Of a stretch of DNA of 64,000 nucleotides, positions 46,511-52,738 are shown one piece after another. Both the position numbers and the translations under genes were made by a program. The notes under the pieces were generated by a model. That model made no database searches. It was not told where the DNA came from and saw only the letters and a program-made list of their open reading frames with translations. This DNA is from Ralstonia sp. SET104 (GTDB lineage Bacteria > Pseudomonadota > Gammaproteobacteria > Burkholderiales > Burkholderiaceae), in contig NZ_BHVX01000016.1 in NCBI RefSeq assembly GCF_003851545.1, forward strand, positions 1-64,000, read 5' to 3'. Every line of letters starts with the position of its first letter. Positions within the stretch are counted from its first letter, which is position 1.

Positions 46511-47275
46511 ATGAATGCCCCCGACAATGTCCCCGGTGTCACCCGGCATAGCCTGCTTGAGGACGTGCTCGCCATCGTTACCGGTACGCTTTTCGTGTCG
46601 CTCGGCATCACGCTGTTCAAGCAGGGCGGTTTGCTGTCAGGCGGGACGGCCGGCTTGGCCTTTCTGATCCACTACGCCACATCGCTGCCCTTTGGTGTGG
46701 TGTTCTTCACCATCAATCTGCCGTTCTATTACCTGGCTGTGCGGCACATGGGATGGCGCTTCACGCTCAAGACGTTCTGTGCGGTGGCGCTGGTGTCGTG
46801 GCTGAGCGAGGTGCACGCGTATTTCGTACAGCTGGGGTCGCTCAATCCGCTGTATGCGGGCGTCATTGGAGGCACGTTGATGGGCGTGGGCTTCATCGTC
46901 CTATTTCGGCACCAGGCCAGCCTGGGCGGTGTCAACATCGTCGCGCTGTATCTGCAGGACAAGTGCGGCATTCGCGCTGGCAAGCTGCAGATGGCGGTGG
47001 ATGTGGGCATCGTGCTGGCCTCGCTGGTCGTGATCAGCCCGATGGCGCTGGCGGCCTCGCTGGTGGGGGCTGTGGCGCTCAACCTCAGCATTGCGTTGAA
47101 CCATCGGCCTGGTCGCTACCTGGCCACGCAGACTTCTTGTACAGGCGCTGCCGATACAGTGCGCCATGCGCAATCCGACCTCGACGTTCGCACGCGCGAG
47201 GCCGAACTTCGGACCTGCGGCATGGCCGCCGTATTGCCCCCTGACGCGGAGGAGGCCGAATCCAGCGAGAGTTGA
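46511..47275 (+). CDS. YitT-family membrane protein
   Basis: The 254-residue protein starts at ATG after AAGGAGCCCCC and has five to six hydrophobic helices between residues 18 and 195. Segments include LFVSLGITLFKQGGLLSGGTAGLAF, GGTLMGVGFIVLFRHQASLGGVN and DVGIVLASLVVISP, which are characteristic of the YitT/DUF161 family. Its function is unknown. The last ~55 residues are hydrophilic and may be dispensable. It converges on the fap-like operon with 39 bp between stops. Confidence 0.87.
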   Translation: MNAPDNVPGVTRHSLLEDVLAIVTGTLFVSLGITLFKQGGLLSGGTAGLAFLIHYATSLPFGVVFFTINLPFYYLAVRHMGWRFTLKTFCAVALVSWLSEVHAYFVQLGSLNPLYAGVIGGTLMGVGFIVLFRHQASLGGVNIVALYLQDKCGIRAGKLQMAVDVGIVLASLVVISPMALAASLVGAVALNLSIALNHRPGRYLATQTSCTGAADTVRHAQSDLDVRTREAELRTCGMAAVLPPDAEEAESSES

Positions 47276-47314: not shown

Positions 47315-48631
47315 CTACCACGTGTACGGGAAGCGCAGCGAGAACACATAGTTCGGGGCGTCTGGCGTTAGGCCCATTGCTAAAGTGGCACTGATCGACA
47401 GGTTCTTGGTCAGCACATGACTGATGCCAAAAGTCATCGTACCCACGTTGGTTTTGCTGCCCACCACCGATTGCTGGGCGCCGCCATCTGGCGTAATGCG
47501 CGTATTGCCCGATACGGCCGTGCTATACGCCATCGTAAGCGCCGTGCGGTCGTTGAGCGCCAGGGCCAGGCCGCCGCCAAGGGTGATGGTGTCGCCAAGC
47601 TTGACCTTGCCAGGCTGCACCACGCCAGCAGTTGAAGAGATGTCACCGAACGAGCGCGGCAGGTAGTACGTGTAGCTCGCATTGGCAAACAGAACGACCG
47701 GGTCATAGGTCTTCAGGAACGAGAAGCCCAGCGTGCCGCTCCACACGCCATTGCCGGTGGGCAATTGCTGCTCGACGATGAGGTTGTTGTTATTGGCGTC
47801 GGGCTGAATCAGTTTGATGCCGAAGGGCGAGCGTCCAGTCGGCGCACGTACGCGGAAGCTGCCCACGATATCAGGCCAGTCAGCCGATTCCTTGACCAGT
47901 TGATAGTAGAGACCGGCACTCACATCGCCTAGACCGGCGGAGGATTTGTCGGCCTCGCTCACCGTGCTGGATGCACCTCCCGCTCCGCCGCTGAAGAACG
48001 TACTGGAGCGGTACACAGTTGGCACAGTGAAATCTGCGCTCAGGCGATCGCTGAAGCCATAGCGGCCGGTGACGTCAAACGTTGTCACGTTGGCCTTGGT
48101 CTGGACCAGGTTGATTTGCCCCAGGAAGATGGCATCCAGGGCCAAAAAGCCGGAGAGCGCCAGATTGCGGCGGTCGTAGTAGCTGTAGCTGATGCCTGTG
48201 TCGAGCGTGAAACGTCGCTCGAAAAGCGGCGCGTGCTCCGACTGGAAAACGAGGTCTTTGCTCTGGATGCGCGGCTTTTCGTTCGGGTCGGTTCTTCCCG
48301 CGGGCGTGCTTTCGGAGGCTGGCGCGGTGCCGTTGGTCGATTGCGCAAGCAGTGCGCCTGAGGGTTGTGCTGTCGAAGTGCCCGCGCCTGCCGTTGCCGC
48401 TGCCGTACTGCCGCTCGAACCGCTTACCCCACGCCCTCGCACACGCACGAGTTCCAGGTCTGAGACGCGCTCCTCAAGCGCCTGGATGACCTTTTGTTGC
48501 CGCTCGATGATGCGTGACAACCTGGCCAGCCGAGCGTCGAATGACTCATCTCCCGTTTGCGCCCAGGCCGCTGCTGGAAGCAACGACCAACATGCCACTG
48601 CCCACGCCACTGCGGTGCGCCGGTGTTCCAT
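47315..48631 (-). CDS. fapF: FapF-like outer-membrane beta-barrel with coiled coil
   Basis: Proposed amyloid secretion pore. The ATG at 48631, after CCGGGGGGAAAC, gives 438 residues. A signal peptide ends AAAWA (about residue 25). A short heptad coiled coil (ARLSRIIERQQKVIQALEERV, about 35-60) follows, then a Ser/Ala/Thr-rich linker to about 110. A transmembrane beta-barrel of alternating strands (FTLDTGISYSYYDR, FDVTGRYGFSDRLSADF, GLYYQLVKESADWP) ends in FSLRFPYTW, the aromatic terminus that BAM recognises. Pseudomonas FapF is a trimer with a coiled-coil plug and barrel, the same layout. It is the last gene of the cluster; overall sequence similarity cannot be measured here. Confidence 0.75.
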   Translation of the reverse strand: MEHRRTAVAWAVACWSLLPAAAWAQTGDESFDARLARLSRIIERQQKVIQALEERVSDLELVRVRGRGVSGSSGSTAAATAGAGTSTAQPSGALLAQSTNGTAPASESTPAGRTDPNEKPRIQSKDLVFQSEHAPLFERRFTLDTGISYSYYDRRNLALSGFLALDAIFLGQINLVQTKANVTTFDVTGRYGFSDRLSADFTVPTVYRSSTFFSGGAGGASSTVSEADKSSAGLGDVSAGLYYQLVKESADWPDIVGSFRVRAPTGRSPFGIKLIQPDANNNNLIVEQQLPTGNGVWSGTLGFSFLKTYDPVVLFANASYTYYLPRSFGDISSTAGVVQPGKVKLGDTITLGGGLALALNDRTALTMAYSTAVSGNTRITPDGGAQQSVVGSKTNVGTMTFGISHVLTKNLSISATLAMGLTPDAPNYVFSLRFPYTW

Positions 48632-48762
48632 GTTTCCCCCCGGAAAGCTAGGTTGAGACTGAAGCGTCTCGGTAGCGGCGCGCGAGCTCAATTGCTGCGC
48701 GCCATTGCTCTATACCTGTCTTGTATTGCGCTACGTTGTTTTCGGGCCATCTTGATGCCGGG

Positions 48763-49566
48763 CTACCGCCGCAAGCCCGCAACCGATTGCAATGCCTGCG
48801 CCACCCCAATCTGCGCCAATTGCTGGCGCGACATCGTCTGTACTTGCAACTGAATCGACAACTGATTGGCAATCACTTGCGCGTTGCCTGCCATCTGGGC
48901 CACCTGCATGACGCTCCCCGCCGCCCCTGCCGTACCCGGCGTCACGGCCTGAGAGGCCACGCCCATTGGGCTGGTGACGGCAACTTGCACGCCGCCCAGG
49001 CCCGCTTGAGCCTGAGCGACAAAACCGTTCTGCGCCGCCATCGCTGAAGCGCTGCCAGAAGGCAGTGTAGGCAACGATGCGGTTTGTATCGAGATGGATG
49101 TGCTATTGCTGGCCAGATTGTTGGCACCTGCTACCTGGGTCACCTGGCCGACACCGTTCACCTGGACACCGATACCGCCCGACACGCTCGCGGCTGGGGT
49201 CACTCCGGAAAGTGAGCCCGCACCCATCTGCACCGACGCTTGCGTGTTTGCAGCGGCGTTCGGGCGATGGCCGGCCAGGTCGGTGGCCAGCAGCCGAGCT
49301 TGTGCCGACGCCTGCCCGGCCTCATTGCGCCAGTGCGTGGCCATTTCGACCATGAATCCGCTGACCACGCTGGCCCCCAGGTACTTGCCTCGTTGCTGCG
49401 CCAGTTCATCATCTCCGGCGAGTTCCACGACGGTGCCGGAATGGAACAGCGCTGCACTGTCATGGGCGTCAGTCGCGTCAAATGTGCCAGGCAGTGCAGC
49501 ACCCGCGCCTGCACACCAGCCGGCGCACGCCAGGGGCACAATCCATGCGAGTGTTTTGGTTTTCAT
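48763..49566 (-). CDS. FapE-like secreted protein
   Basis: The 267-residue protein has a signal peptide ending GAGAA (about residue 24), then DDELAQQRGKYLGASVVSGF. A body very rich in Ala, Gly, Gln, Val and Asn follows, including GGIGVQVNGVGQVTQVAG and GANNLASNS. Near the end is QVQTMSRQQLAQIGVAQALQS. The GxGQVxQVAGxxN stretch recalls Fap fibre proteins, and its place between the C39 peptidase and the barrel is that of FapE, a minor fibre component in Pseudomonas. Its ATG overlaps the TGA of the peptidase gene by one base, so translation is coupled. Assignment rests on position and composition. Confidence 0.6.
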   Translation of the reverse strand: MKTKTLAWIVPLACAGWCAGAGAALPGTFDATDAHDSAALFHSGTVVELAGDDELAQQRGKYLGASVVSGFMVEMATHWRNEAGQASAQARLLATDLAGHRPNAAANTQASVQMGAGSLSGVTPAASVSGGIGVQVNGVGQVTQVAGANNLASNSTSISIQTASLPTLPSGSASAMAAQNGFVAQAQAGLGGVQVAVTSPMGVASQAVTPGTAGAAGSVMQVAQMAGNAQVIANQLSIQLQVQTMSRQQLAQIGVAQALQSVAGLRR

Positions 49567-50282
49567 CAGAACAAGTCCCAGCGGGCAGGCCCGAACTCCA
49601 TCTGGATGGGCAGAGCGCCTCCCCCGAACGCTGCGTTCTCACGCGCGCGCAGAGAGGGTGCGTTGGTCTGCAGCAATCCGGAGTCAGCCTGCACCGATTT
49701 CTCGCCGACGATTGCGAATACGAGGCCATTCCATGCAGGCGCGAATTCCCATTCCTGCATGATGCGATTGCCTAGAGCCGGGTCGGCGATGAACACTCGT
49801 CCCTGGGCAGCGCGTTTGACGACCACAAAATGTTGGTACCCGTTCAAGTTCAGCAAAACAATCACCGGAATCGCGAGGTCGCGAAGGGCCGTCATGTCGA
49901 CCCGGTAGCCACGGCCTCGAAAGTTCAGTGTTTGCACGTAGTTGCGCATGTCGAGCATGGAGAACCCTTGCTCGGCGACCTGCTTTGGGTCGCTCACCTT
50001 CATCATGTCAGTGATGATGTTGCGCTCATCGATGTCTATGCCGTAGCCGTAGCGCAGTAGCGTGCCGACTGCAGCGGCACCACAACTGAAATCCTGCTGC
50101 TGGCGCATCACGTTGCGATAGCGCAGCTCCGCCATGCTCTTCACCGGCTTTCTCAGTGGCATCTCGTTATCAGCGCGCAGGTCGATTGCACCGTCTTCCG
50201 CGCAAGCCACCGGCCCGGTCCACATGCAGCCGCAGACCAGGCACAGTCCGACGACACCCTTCGATAGCGGCACCGCTCGCAT
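49566..50282 (-). CDS. fapD: FapD-like C39-family peptidase
   Basis: The ATG at 50282, after GGGAGGGGAGCC, gives 238 residues with a signal peptide (GVVGLCLVCGCMWTGPVACA), so it acts in the periplasm. The C39 papain-like domain has the Gln-Cys pair in QQQDFSCGAAAVGTLLRYG near residue 59, the His in GYQHFVVVKRA near residue 139, and Asp in VFIADPALGN. In the Pseudomonas Fap system FapD is the only predicted protease and is needed for export. There is no ABC transporter attached, unlike bacteriocin C39 exporters, which supports the Fap reading. Confidence 0.82.
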   Translation of the reverse strand: MRAVPLSKGVVGLCLVCGCMWTGPVACAEDGAIDLRADNEMPLRKPVKSMAELRYRNVMRQQQDFSCGAAAVGTLLRYGYGIDIDERNIITDMMKVSDPKQVAEQGFSMLDMRNYVQTLNFRGRGYRVDMTALRDLAIPVIVLLNLNGYQHFVVVKRAAQGRVFIADPALGNRIMQEWEFAPAWNGLVFAIVGEKSVQADSGLLQTNAPSLRARENAAFGGGALPIQMEFGPARWDLF

Positions 50283-50347
50283 GGCTCCCCTCCCTGGTGT
50301 TGGCCCAGCCCGCATCGCTTGTGGCGACGGGGCCGGGCTGACACGAC

Positions 50348-51127
50348 TCAGTTCGCAGCCTTGGCCGTGGCGATGGCCAGACCGTTGTGTTGCAGGTTGC
50401 CCGCGCCGGCAGCGATGTTCACGCCAATGTTGCCCATGGCGTTCATCAGTGCGGAACCGCTCAACGATGCAACGTTGGTCGGGTCGCAGCCGTTCAGTCG
50501 CAGCGAGTTGTTATCTGCGGCCTGCTTGTTGTAGTCCGTGGCCTTGGCGATGTGGCCCGAGCTGTTGGTGGAAGCCGCCATGCCGTTTTCTTGCAGGTTG
50601 CCCGCGCCGGCAGCGATGTTCACGCCAATGGTGCCCTTGGCGCCTTTGAGTGCGTTACCGCTGAGCGACGCCATATTGACAGCGTTGCCGATAGCGAGCG
50701 ACTCACCCGGGTCCGACTGGTTGTTAAAGACCTGGGCGGAAGCGAACACCTTGCCGGCATCCACCGCCGCCAGCGCAACATCGTTGGATTGGGCGTTGCC
50801 TGCACCGGCCGCCACGTTCAGGCCCACTGCACCCTGGGCGCCCTGCAGAGCCTGGTCGTTGACGGTGGCCTTGTTGTCACCGCGCCGGAGGTCGACGCTG
50901 TTGTTGCTGCTGCTTTGCGTGGAATCCACCACGGCGGACGACTCTGACGAGAACGGAATCCGCCCGAGTGCCAGGCCATAGCCCTGCACGTGGATGTCGT
51001 TGCTGATTTCGGTCACGTTGCTGATGACCGCGCCGGAAGAGCGCGGACCATCGTCACGGTCGTGGGCATAGGCGGCACCTGTGGCAAGCAGGGCCAGTAC
51101 GGCAATGGCAGTCAGTTTGGCTTTCAT
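50348..51127 (-). CDS. FapC-like repeat protein, candidate major amyloid subunit
   Basis: The ATG at 51127, after GGGAGATTTTCACC, gives 259 residues with a signal peptide ending GAAYA (about residue 21). Three imperfect repeats of about 30 residues lie at 92-121, 154-185 and 222-253, sharing G-x-x-G-(V/L)-N-(I/V)-AAGAGN-x-Q-x-N, e.g. GTIGVNIAAGAGNLQ. They are separated by Ser/Asn/Asp-rich linkers of 32-36 residues. Three Gly/Asn/Gln/Ala repeats with hydrophilic linkers is the architecture of the Fap fibre proteins FapC and FapB. The C-terminal CXXC of Pseudomonas FapC is absent; the only Cys is C214 in a linker. Confidence 0.7.
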   Translation of the reverse strand: MKAKLTAIAVLALLATGAAYAHDRDDGPRSSGAVISNVTEISNDIHVQGYGLALGRIPFSSESSAVVDSTQSSSNNSVDLRRGDNKATVNDQALQGAQGAVGLNVAAGAGNAQSNDVALAAVDAGKVFASAQVFNNQSDPGESLAIGNAVNMASLSGNALKGAKGTIGVNIAAGAGNLQENGMAASTNSSGHIAKATDYNKQAADNNSLRLNGCDPTNVASLSGSALMNAMGNIGVNIAAGAGNLQHNGLAIATAKAAN

Positions 51128-51155
51128 GGTGAAAATCTCCCTTCCGTTATCGCTG

Positions 51156-51767
51156 TTAAAAAAGAGTGCCCGCCGGGGGACGGAGCACAAAAGTGTTGGA
51201 CGTGACATTCCCCGTTCCAGCCGTCTGGTTCACCTGCACGACGCCGGAGGTATTGCGCAACGCGGTCGATGCAATCGATGCGTCTTGCCGTCCCTCCGTT
51301 GCCGGTGAGGTGTCCTGACGACGACCCTGTTGTGCCGCTACGCCTGACAGTGCGTTGTCAGCGAGTGGCTCGATATGACGGACCTGCTTTTGCATAACGG
51401 AAACGTTGGGTGCAATCGCTGCAACGTTGACCTGTGCATTAGCGGTACCGCTGGTCTGGTTGATGGAAACGATTCCCGACGCGCTGTTGAAGGCGGCGCC
51501 GGACATCTGGCTCGCAGCAGAAAGCCCCGCTTGCGCAGAGCCGACGCTCTGCAACGACACCACGTTTGCCTGGTCGGTCGAGAGGGTTGCGACGTTCGCC
51601 TGTGCGTGACTCGTGCCCGCTGCCTGATTCACAGAGATGCGGCCTGCGGTGTGCTGTGCGAACTCGCCATCCATCACGGCTGACGGTGACAGACCCTGCG
51701 CCCAGACTGTCCCTGCAAGCAGCGTGGCAAAGGCAACCAAGGCGTGGCGTGCGCCGAAGCTCCTCAT
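51156..51767 (-). CDS. FapB-like repeat protein, candidate amyloid nucleator
   Basis: The 203-residue protein has a signal peptide ending TVWA (about residue 23). Three imperfect repeats lie at about 41-61, 97-118 and 173-195, each built on V-N-Q-(A/T)-(A/S)-G-T-x-x-x-x-(A/S)-(Q/N)-x-N (GRISVNQAAGTSHAQANV, GIVSINQTSGTANAQVNV, GVVQVNQTAGTGNVTSNT). Linkers are Ser/Gln/Ala-rich. This three-repeat design again matches FapB/FapC, and its position second in the operon matches FapB, the nucleator in Pseudomonas. It overlaps the upstream gene by 4 bp. Confidence 0.68.
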   Translation of the reverse strand: MRSFGARHALVAFATLLAGTVWAQGLSPSAVMDGEFAQHTAGRISVNQAAGTSHAQANVATLSTDQANVVSLQSVGSAQAGLSAASQMSGAAFNSASGIVSINQTSGTANAQVNVAAIAPNVSVMQKQVRHIEPLADNALSGVAAQQGRRQDTSPATEGRQDASIASTALRNTSGVVQVNQTAGTGNVTSNTFVLRPPAGTLF

Positions 51768-52261
51768 GGCTGACCTCCACGGGACAAGGGCATCAGCGCT
51801 CCGCTGATTTGGGATGCGATTCCGGCGGTGGCTTGTACCACTTGGCCACCCACGCCGGCCACCGCAGCACCGCCTGTTGCCGTCCCGGTCGCCAGCGCGC
51901 CAGGCCCCGGCTGCAGTCCGCCCAGCGATGCAGGGACGGGGCGTTGCAACCCGGAGAGCGAACTACCGGCGGAGGCGTGCGACGTGCTGAGCTCTCCGTC
52001 GGAGAGCGCAGACATCACAGAGCCGATGGATCCGTTGAATGCGCGCGTAGGAAACGGACTGATGGCCGTTCGTACGGGCAGGGACTCGGTCGGGACACCG
52101 CGATACGCGACGCGCGGCGTGACGTCACGCTGCACGACGATGTCGCCGTCTTCAGCGAGCGCCGATGCGCTGGCGAACAGGGCCATAAGGCCTGCGACCA
52201 GTATGTTTTGGACAATCGTCGACCCGCGCCGAGCACGGCACTGCAAGGTGGCTGTTGACAT
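51764..52261 (-). CDS. Secreted protein in the FapA position
   Basis: First gene of the cluster, 165 residues. A signal peptide covers about residues 1-36 (NILVAGLMALFASASALA), followed by EDGDIVVQRDVTPRVAYRGVP, a Ser/Leu-rich middle (GSIGSVMSALSDGEL) and a Gly/Ala/Pro-rich C-terminus (GGAAVAGVGGQVVQATAG). I see no clear sequence match to Pseudomonas FapA, a small periplasmic chaperone-like protein, so the link is by position only. GGGAGGGGAG precedes the ATG. Its stop overlaps the next start (ATGA). Confidence 0.55.
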   Translation of the reverse strand: MSTATLQCRARRGSTIVQNILVAGLMALFASASALAEDGDIVVQRDVTPRVAYRGVPTESLPVRTAISPFPTRAFNGSIGSVMSALSDGELSTSHASAGSSLSGLQRPVPASLGGLQPGPGALATGTATGGAAVAGVGGQVVQATAGIASQISGALMPLSRGGQP

Positions 52262-52738
52262 GACTCTCCCCTCCCGGGCGGTGAGCAGAGCGACATCCGT
52301 GCCATGGCGATTAAACGTCTGTTTCTACGGAAGATTCCGGCGGCTCAAGACACATTGCGGTGCTTCTGCGAGCGAATTTTGTGTCAGGGCTGAAACAGGT
52401 GGGTCATCGAACAGCGTGTATCGCTGCGCCCCACGCCGCGATGGATGGCGCCGACATGCGTATTGCACATGGTCGGCTAGTAGTCGCTCACACCGACGCG
52501 ATGCCCCAAGCTACCCGGCAGGATTGGAGCGTTCGTGCGTTCAGGGGATGGGCAAGCCACGGCTTCACTATGTGCATAGCAATGCGCCTGTGATGTGCTG
52601 TGACGCTGTCCAGTACGCTGTTTCAAGACGGCAACACGTTGTCTTTCCGGCCTCTACACAGGGCGTTTAAAGCGGGGGCAGCGCGCATGGCGCTTGTATG
52701 CTGCCGGGACTTTGATTCCACCCTGCGGAGGCTGCCCC
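52262..52738. other. Promoter region of the fap-like operon, otherwise empty
   Basis: These 477 bp lie between the divergent fap-like operon and the DUF1145-like gene. Both promoters should be here, but I find no clear sigma-70 or sigma-54 consensus. A 77-codon ORF at 52360-52593 has no ribosome site and is not accepted. Confidence 0.45.

Follow-up and report, generated by a model that had tools for sequence, protein, structure and literature searches.

The stretch of DNA analyzed here (the window) comprises 64,000 nucleotides (nt) of Ralstonia sp. SET104, contig NZ_BHVX01000016.1. Between positions 47315 and 52261, six consecutive genes on its minus strand form, with high confidence, a complete fapABCDEF operon, a member of the Fap functional-amyloid system. 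The explanation that best accounts for the locus as a whole, and that we hold to be very probable, is a Fap functional-amyloid operon under sigma54/VpsR-type control, with a hairpin at the end of fapB and with an intact copy that was transferred or moved. The Fap operon itself was expected and adds little. A 2013 survey (PMC3792158), in the part of its text consulted, already describes fapABCDEF operons for Beta-, Gamma-, and Deltaproteobacteria, with Ralstonia pickettii among the species named; the operons of other Burkholderiales thus represent the same system, and the occurrence of Fap outside Pseudomonas, presented as a novelty in an earlier note on this DNA, was rejected as such. Sequence comparisons point to three features as new: a conserved sigma54 promoter with an upstream site and a VpsR-domain activator encoded elsewhere, resembling the RpoN/BrfA control of Pseudomonas fap; a nearly invariant hairpin in the last codons of fapB that also occurs where fap genes are absent; and a fapA remnant kept beside the activator in 14 of 14 Ralstonia genomes read, in 13 of them with both the promoter and the terminator hairpin.

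The fap operon and its products

The six genes lie at the positions given in the earlier note. The best NCBIfam match of each protein is the Fap model for the same operon position (six of six, in order), as listed below with protein lengths in amino acids (aa).

51764..52261, minus strand: fapA, 165 aa, putative periplasmic chaperone (NCBIfam chaperone_FapA, E 2.1e-9, 37.8 bits, cut-off 110)
51156..51767, minus strand: fapB, 203 aa, minor fibre subunit, three repeats (NCBIfam FapB, E 2.1e-19, 69.8 bits, cut-off 190)
50348..51127, minus strand: fapC, 259 aa, major fibre subunit, three repeats (NCBIfam FapC, E 2.8e-29, 102.8 bits, cut-off 195)
49566..50315, minus strand: fapD, 249 aa, C39 cysteine peptidase (NCBIfam C39_FapD, E 6.4e-57, 192.4 bits, cut-off 330)
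48763..49566, minus strand: fapE, 267 aa, Ala/Gly/Gln-rich secreted component (NCBIfam FapE, E 8.7e-16, 57.9 bits, cut-off 250)
47315..48631, minus strand: fapF, 438 aa, outer-membrane export barrel with an N-terminal heptad stretch (NCBIfam FapF, E 9.7e-114, 380.4 bits, cut-off 700)

The start of fapF is the ATG chosen at 48631, an alternative TTG upstream at 48691 being possible. Because the matches to all six Fap models are ordered, chance is excluded, and the coordinates and matches together confirm the fapA-to-fapF order that the earlier note had proposed. The FapC, FapF, and C39 models all matched the expected gene, the first two below their cut-offs. The genes had also been said to form one unit on account of overlaps of 1 to 4 bp and short gaps. 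The overlaps (4 bp between fapA and fapB, 1 bp between fapD and fapE) and the gaps after fapB (28 bp) and fapC (32 bp) are indeed short, the exception being the 131 bp that separate fapE from fapF.

The three repeats described in both FapB and FapC are real by a shuffle test. The best triple of 35-residue segments scored 315 in FapC and 187 in FapB, versus maxima of 84 and 64, respectively, in 20 shuffles. FapC matched two solved FapC fibres among PDB sequences (E 2.3e-17 for 9u4u, E 2.7e-17 for the other), its residues 63-254 aligning with a solved fibre. The repeat motif had been thought distinct from that of Pseudomonas; this was abandoned, as the core of the repeat can be aligned with that of Pseudomonas FapC and the repeats are the usual Fap ones. 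For FapD, the presence of a C39 peptidase is borne out by Pfam, in which its C39 domain is the sole feature above cut-off among the curated models (Peptidase_C39, E 1.9e-23). Residues Q72, C78, H162, and D178, which we take to be the C39 catalytic motif, are kept in the FapD proteins of seven of seven other Ralstonia operons, and the catalytic set is intact. Residues 136-437 of FapF match the solved FapF barrel 5o65 by sequence alone (E 3.5e-87), so the resemblance of the last gene to FapF stands at that level; in residues 29-56, seven of eight a/d positions are hydrophobic in the best of many frames.

Several observations weigh against the assignment. None of the six proteins reaches its NCBIfam equivalog cut-off, FapC has a single cysteine (Cys214) and no CxxC, and FapB gave no Fap match against PDB sequences, the listed matches being unrelated proteins (E 0.0058 to 0.22). 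Low scores are nonetheless normal for Fap, because identities to the Pseudomonas aeruginosa proteins average 17-39% outside Pseudomonadales according to the consulted part of PMC3792158. CxxC in FapC is called conserved in the available portion of a review; we do not take it as defining for Fap, because the term is absent from the survey text at hand. Overall, the Ralstonia locus shares with Pseudomonas Fap the gene number and order, the homology of the FapF barrel, the C39 catalytic residues, and three-repeat FapB and FapC proteins. It differs by scores below the six equivalog cut-offs, a FapC without CxxC, an activator unlinked to the operon, and the hairpin at the end of fapB.

By analogy with work on Pseudomonas, we infer that the operon forms amyloid. 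All six proteins would enter the periplasm, with FapA acting as a chaperone and FapD as the processing peptidase, and FapB, FapC, and FapE would leave through FapF and form a surface amyloid that stiffens the biofilm. Alternatively, the operon might belong to a Fap-related system for the export of a non-amyloid fibre or adhesin, in which the repeats serve another fold. The lack of CxxC is in line with this, as is a second locus of the same genome in which a weaker FapF-like protein and a C39 peptidase accompany a Gly-rich secreted protein instead of FapB and FapC. However, FapC keeps its three repeats and aligns with the solved fibre, which makes this alternative highly improbable.

The second, Fap-like locus (L021:4378-8889, on contig G000:C9 at about 112.4-116.9 kb, G000 being the window's genome) encodes a FapF-like barrel (NCBIfam FapF, E 1.6e-44), a C39 FapD-like peptidase (E 1e-39), two small secreted proteins, and the Gly-rich secreted protein, the last three without FapB/FapC family match. 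Because this locus pairs the exporter with a Gly-rich protein, a link to amyloid is not obligatory for the exporter family. Its FapF type, a weak match, occurs in 16 of 16 Ralstonia genomes, and a strong FapF match occurs in 8 of the 16. Close relatives of the window's FapF (85-88%) numbered four in one scan, i.e., three Ralstonia records, one of them R. pickettii, and one Burkholderiaceae bin. FapC was matched in 87/299 family genomes at E 1e-3 and, at E 1e-20, in 15/369 genomes of the class (the window's own included), representing 11/272 genera. Among the loci read, L003/L025, L004/L028, L005/L027, and L006/L026 lie on contigs of equal length, and each pair was counted as one place.

Sigma54 promoter, upstream site and activator

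Two elements precede fapA. Their alignment and spacing were determined in seven of the eight intact Ralstonia loci, that of G004 being left out since it ends at a contig edge.

52289..52304, minus strand: predicted sigma54 (-24/-12) promoter TGGCACGGATGTCGCT, kept in 7/7 loci
52377..52398, minus strand: candidate enhancer site, 93-94 bp upstream of the promoter, kept in 7/7 loci at fixed spacing

The promoter pattern by itself is not significant in the window (one match versus a chance mean of 0.47); the evidence for it is its conservation. No sigma70-type promoter was found between 47000 and 52700. At up to three mismatches, the upstream site has one other copy in the genome, on contig C2, before a truncated fapA that adjoins the gene for a sigma54 activator (Sigma54_activat, E 2.2e-65; VpsR domain, E 3.4e-21). 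Fifteen of the 16 Ralstonia genomes compared encode the activator at an identity of at least 91%; G003 has no close match, and the copy of G006 reads with one internal stop. It adjoins the intact fap operon in G013, and homologues of it (54-62%) are present at the fap operon in six of six other Burkholderiaceae loci read. A point against its role here is that in the window's genome it is unlinked to fap, lying on another contig beside the remnant, so that we infer its action on the window's promoter from the shared upstream site and from the linkage in relatives.

Such control would resemble that of Pseudomonas fluorescens PF07, which likewise has a sigma54 promoter upstream of fapA. According to the accessible part of PMC9207406, the -24/-12 promoter of PF07 fapA was mapped, and fap expression falls upon deletion of rpoN or of the neighbouring brfA; BrfA is described as sensing cyclic di-GMP (c-di-GMP) in the portion of PMC13101488 consulted. 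Transcription of the window's operon most likely starts at the sigma54 promoter, activated by the VpsR-domain protein of G000:C2, which is perhaps c-di-GMP-responsive, as is BrfA. Like BrfA and BerB of Burkholderia cenocepacia, c-di-GMP/RpoN activators in the partial accounts available, it would be a sigma54 activator acting over biofilm matrix genes; it differs by its VpsR domain, and the likeness is one of description.

The hairpin at the end of fapB

A terminator-like scan identified the following element within the coding sequence of fapB.

51166..51188, minus strand: 23-nt stem-loop followed by a T run, inside the last fapB codons

The hairpin is identical in all eight intact Ralstonia operons and occupies the same place in five of six other fap operons of the family, although FapB is about 37-45% identical to the window's FapB across the genera that keep it. 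At no more than one mismatch, it was found in 148/299 family genomes, usually once, and the reversed control in none; the 151 genomes without it at this threshold include G003. At least 61 hairpin genomes have no FapC match (148 minus 87). In other orders of the class, 10 FapC loci of about 4 kb were scanned in the same way and did not show it. An extra copy lies in a Ralstonia genome without strong FapF match, at G001:C5:35970-35992, on another contig than the activator.

We read the hairpin as a putative attenuator or 3'-end small RNA. Most likely it ends part of the fapAB message: situated in the last fapB codons, it would probably terminate a share of the transcripts, as a result of which fapAB and fapCDEF would, we propose, be made in different amounts. 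It may also give rise to a small RNA from the 3' end. Two observations speak against a special element. One of the six other family operons, L076, lacks the exact hairpin, which has diverged there, as well as the strict promoter pattern, and the folding energy of the hairpin is unexceptional, with z scores of -1.87, -1.39, -1.62, and +0.42 in four sequences.

The latter is also what would be expected of an ordinary intrinsic terminator, or of a by-product of protein conservation, without regulatory role. The hairpin does encode the conserved VLRPPAGT end of FapB, and terminator-like sites are no commoner than in shuffled sequences (three found versus a mean of 4.8; two versus a mean of 1.0 at the remnant). 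However, in 12 fapB genes (from six of the eight Ralstonia operons and six others), each of these eight residues has one and the same codon in 9 to 12 genes, versus 27-75% for the twelve other invariant four-fold residues. Moreover, the loop and bulge are kept, not the stem alone, and the hairpin persists in 13 of the 14 Ralstonia remnants as well as in places without a fap operon and with differing upstream reading frames. We therefore consider such an ordinary origin unlikely, though not negligible.

The places without fap genes come from 20 loci, picked by hand among the hairpin genomes without FapC match and read over 4 kb on each side. The activator was present in all 20 and a same-strand, upstream sigma54-type promoter in 19. 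Eighteen had no fap operon, with just a FapB end or weak FapC matches; fap genes were found at the other two, which indicates that the FapC search of the family genomes misses some. A reading-frame test covered 17 of the 18 fap-less loci, L104 being left out. In one genus (10 loci), a frame of 64-80 aa precedes the hairpin, and in another (7 loci) a frame of 107-108 aa with a signal-like start; in both, most change falls at third positions. Because the upstream frames differ, the constants of the fap-less loci are the promoter, the hairpin, and the activator, and not a protein. The presence of the hairpin without fap genes favours a sequence-specific role for it. In the first genus (L090-L099, 10 genomes), the small frame begins with MRHPP or MRQPP under the same sigma54 type of promoter. 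In the second (L100-L103, L105-L107), the 107-108-aa protein replaces the fap genes, and a GTTTCA-N4-TGAAAC repeat lies upstream.

Rfam covariance models gave no family match at the hairpin, and assignment to a known RNA family was rejected. Among the papers listed by a literature search, none dealt with such a terminator, judged by title and the beginning of the abstract. That the hairpin is maintained across genera, and occurs without nearby fap genes, suggests that control over bacterial amyloid has a layer so far unrecognized or that the biofilm switch includes a new small RNA.

The fapA remnant and the history of the operon

For the region next to the activator, 14 Ralstonia genomes were read; G003 was excluded, as was G013, where the intact operon stands at this place. 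All 14 have a fapA-like 5' part there. Thirteen retain the sigma54 promoter, the upstream block, and the hairpin, whose copy in G009 has a changed base and still folds; G002 has a degraded promoter and has lost both the upstream block and the hairpin.

The remnant might be plain decaying DNA, conserved merely through the closeness of the Ralstonia genomes. The decay in G002 would fit, and coding constraint is missing: in 13 of the genomes (G008, frameshifted, was left out), the three codon positions differ by 16.8, 14.2, and 15.1%, and the ratio of nonsynonymous to synonymous change (dN/dS) is 0.81. For lack of codon-position bias and with this dN/dS, a protein-coding role of the remnant is unsupported. 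Single-sequence folding energies are also close to those of shuffles (z -0.80, -1.09, and -1.73 in three sequences). In contrast, the 12 genomes of the RNA alignment show almost no indels along some 347 nt; G008 and G004 were not used there because they lack the exact 3' pattern employed for cutting. Differences amount to 12-22% per 40 columns, and to 3.2% in one such block. By comparison, the three flanking genes differ by 27-32% at their four-fold sites, and the 440 columns that follow by 35-56%. The consensus fold has a z score of -4.78, outside the range of 13 control windows (+0.75 to -2.8), although a weaker signal is also seen on the opposite strand (z -3.47). Seventeen pairs are changed on both sides, versus 6.8 in shuffles, a comparison in which the structure was derived from the same 12 related sequences, which alone can exceed shuffles. 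Given these patterns and the retention of promoter, block, and hairpin in all but one genome, simple decay seems rather unlikely.

Rfam gave no match at the remnant beyond a sub-threshold, chance-level one at its upstream edge. A conserved structure inside intact fapA is unsupported (consensus-fold z -1.06 for seven sequences; z -0.69 for the window's sequence).

A more far-reaching interpretation, which we advance tentatively and regard as possible rather than probable, is that the true constant of the locus in Burkholderiaceae is a 3'-end regulatory RNA at the end of fapB, almost invariant and with a C-rich loop. The sigma54/VpsR-type (c-di-GMP) switch would drive this RNA, which would act in trans on ribosome-binding sites; promoter, hairpin, and activator would stay behind wherever the amyloid genes disappear or give way to other small genes, and the Ralstonia remnant would be a stand-alone structured RNA gene derived from the 5' end of fapA. 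S17 RNA of Bordetella pertussis is comparable by description, with a 27-nt stretch fully conserved across Betaproteobacteria and a 3' terminator, and it is reported to repress a sigma54 activator (PMC11722255, a preprint, in the part consulted). The fap hairpin differs from S17 in being absent from 151 of the 299 family genomes at the threshold given above and in having no Rfam match.

Regarding the operon's history, we conclude that a copy beside the activator was lost and that the present operon was gained or relocated. The activator-side copy would thereby have been reduced to a promoter-plus-hairpin unit, and the intact copy probably arrived by transfer or moved. Trees were built for the eight genomes in which the operon is intact, glmS being partial in G002. 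The fap data and the data of four marker genes reject each other's tree in the approximately unbiased test (P 2.3e-5 and 3.1e-132). Likewise, G000 and G008 share 90.0% in the markers and 79.2% in fap, whereas G008 and G012 share 87.0% and 88.3%. A weakness of this argument is that three of the four markers are neighbours and that the set includes the activator itself.

According to the consulted part of the 2013 survey, Fap and 16S trees have similar topologies, little horizontal transfer was inferred, and partly deleted fap operons were left as remains in Acidithiobacillus and Burkholderia; neither a hairpin nor a Ralstonia remnant is described there. Extended to Ralstonia, this would mean a vertically inherited system that was merely rearranged. 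The small, partly linked marker set leaves room for this, and the same DUF1145-like and patatin genes occur near the operon in three of the eight genomes. In G000 they precede fapA by about 0.4 kb, whereas in G012 and G004 they lie downstream of fapF, at about 0.35 kb and about 4.5 kb, respectively. However, the mutual rejection of the trees, the discordant identities, and the lack of a strong FapF match in 8 of 16 Ralstonia genomes make vertical inheritance unlikely. Together, the remnant and the tree conflict would provide a specific example of an amyloid operon being lost and regained, or being relocated, in a system held by the survey text at hand to be mostly vertically inherited.

Traces of the event may be visible next to fapF. 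In its final 40 or so codons, the adjoining yitT-type gene (46511-47275) departs from the copies of four other Ralstonia genomes. Matches to its product stop at residues 212-217 in these four genomes (236 in G002), and its tail resembles sequence located just downstream of fapF in G009 and G012. The similarity of the window's DNA to three fap-less genomes stops at 47134-47150, near which an insertion edge is likely.

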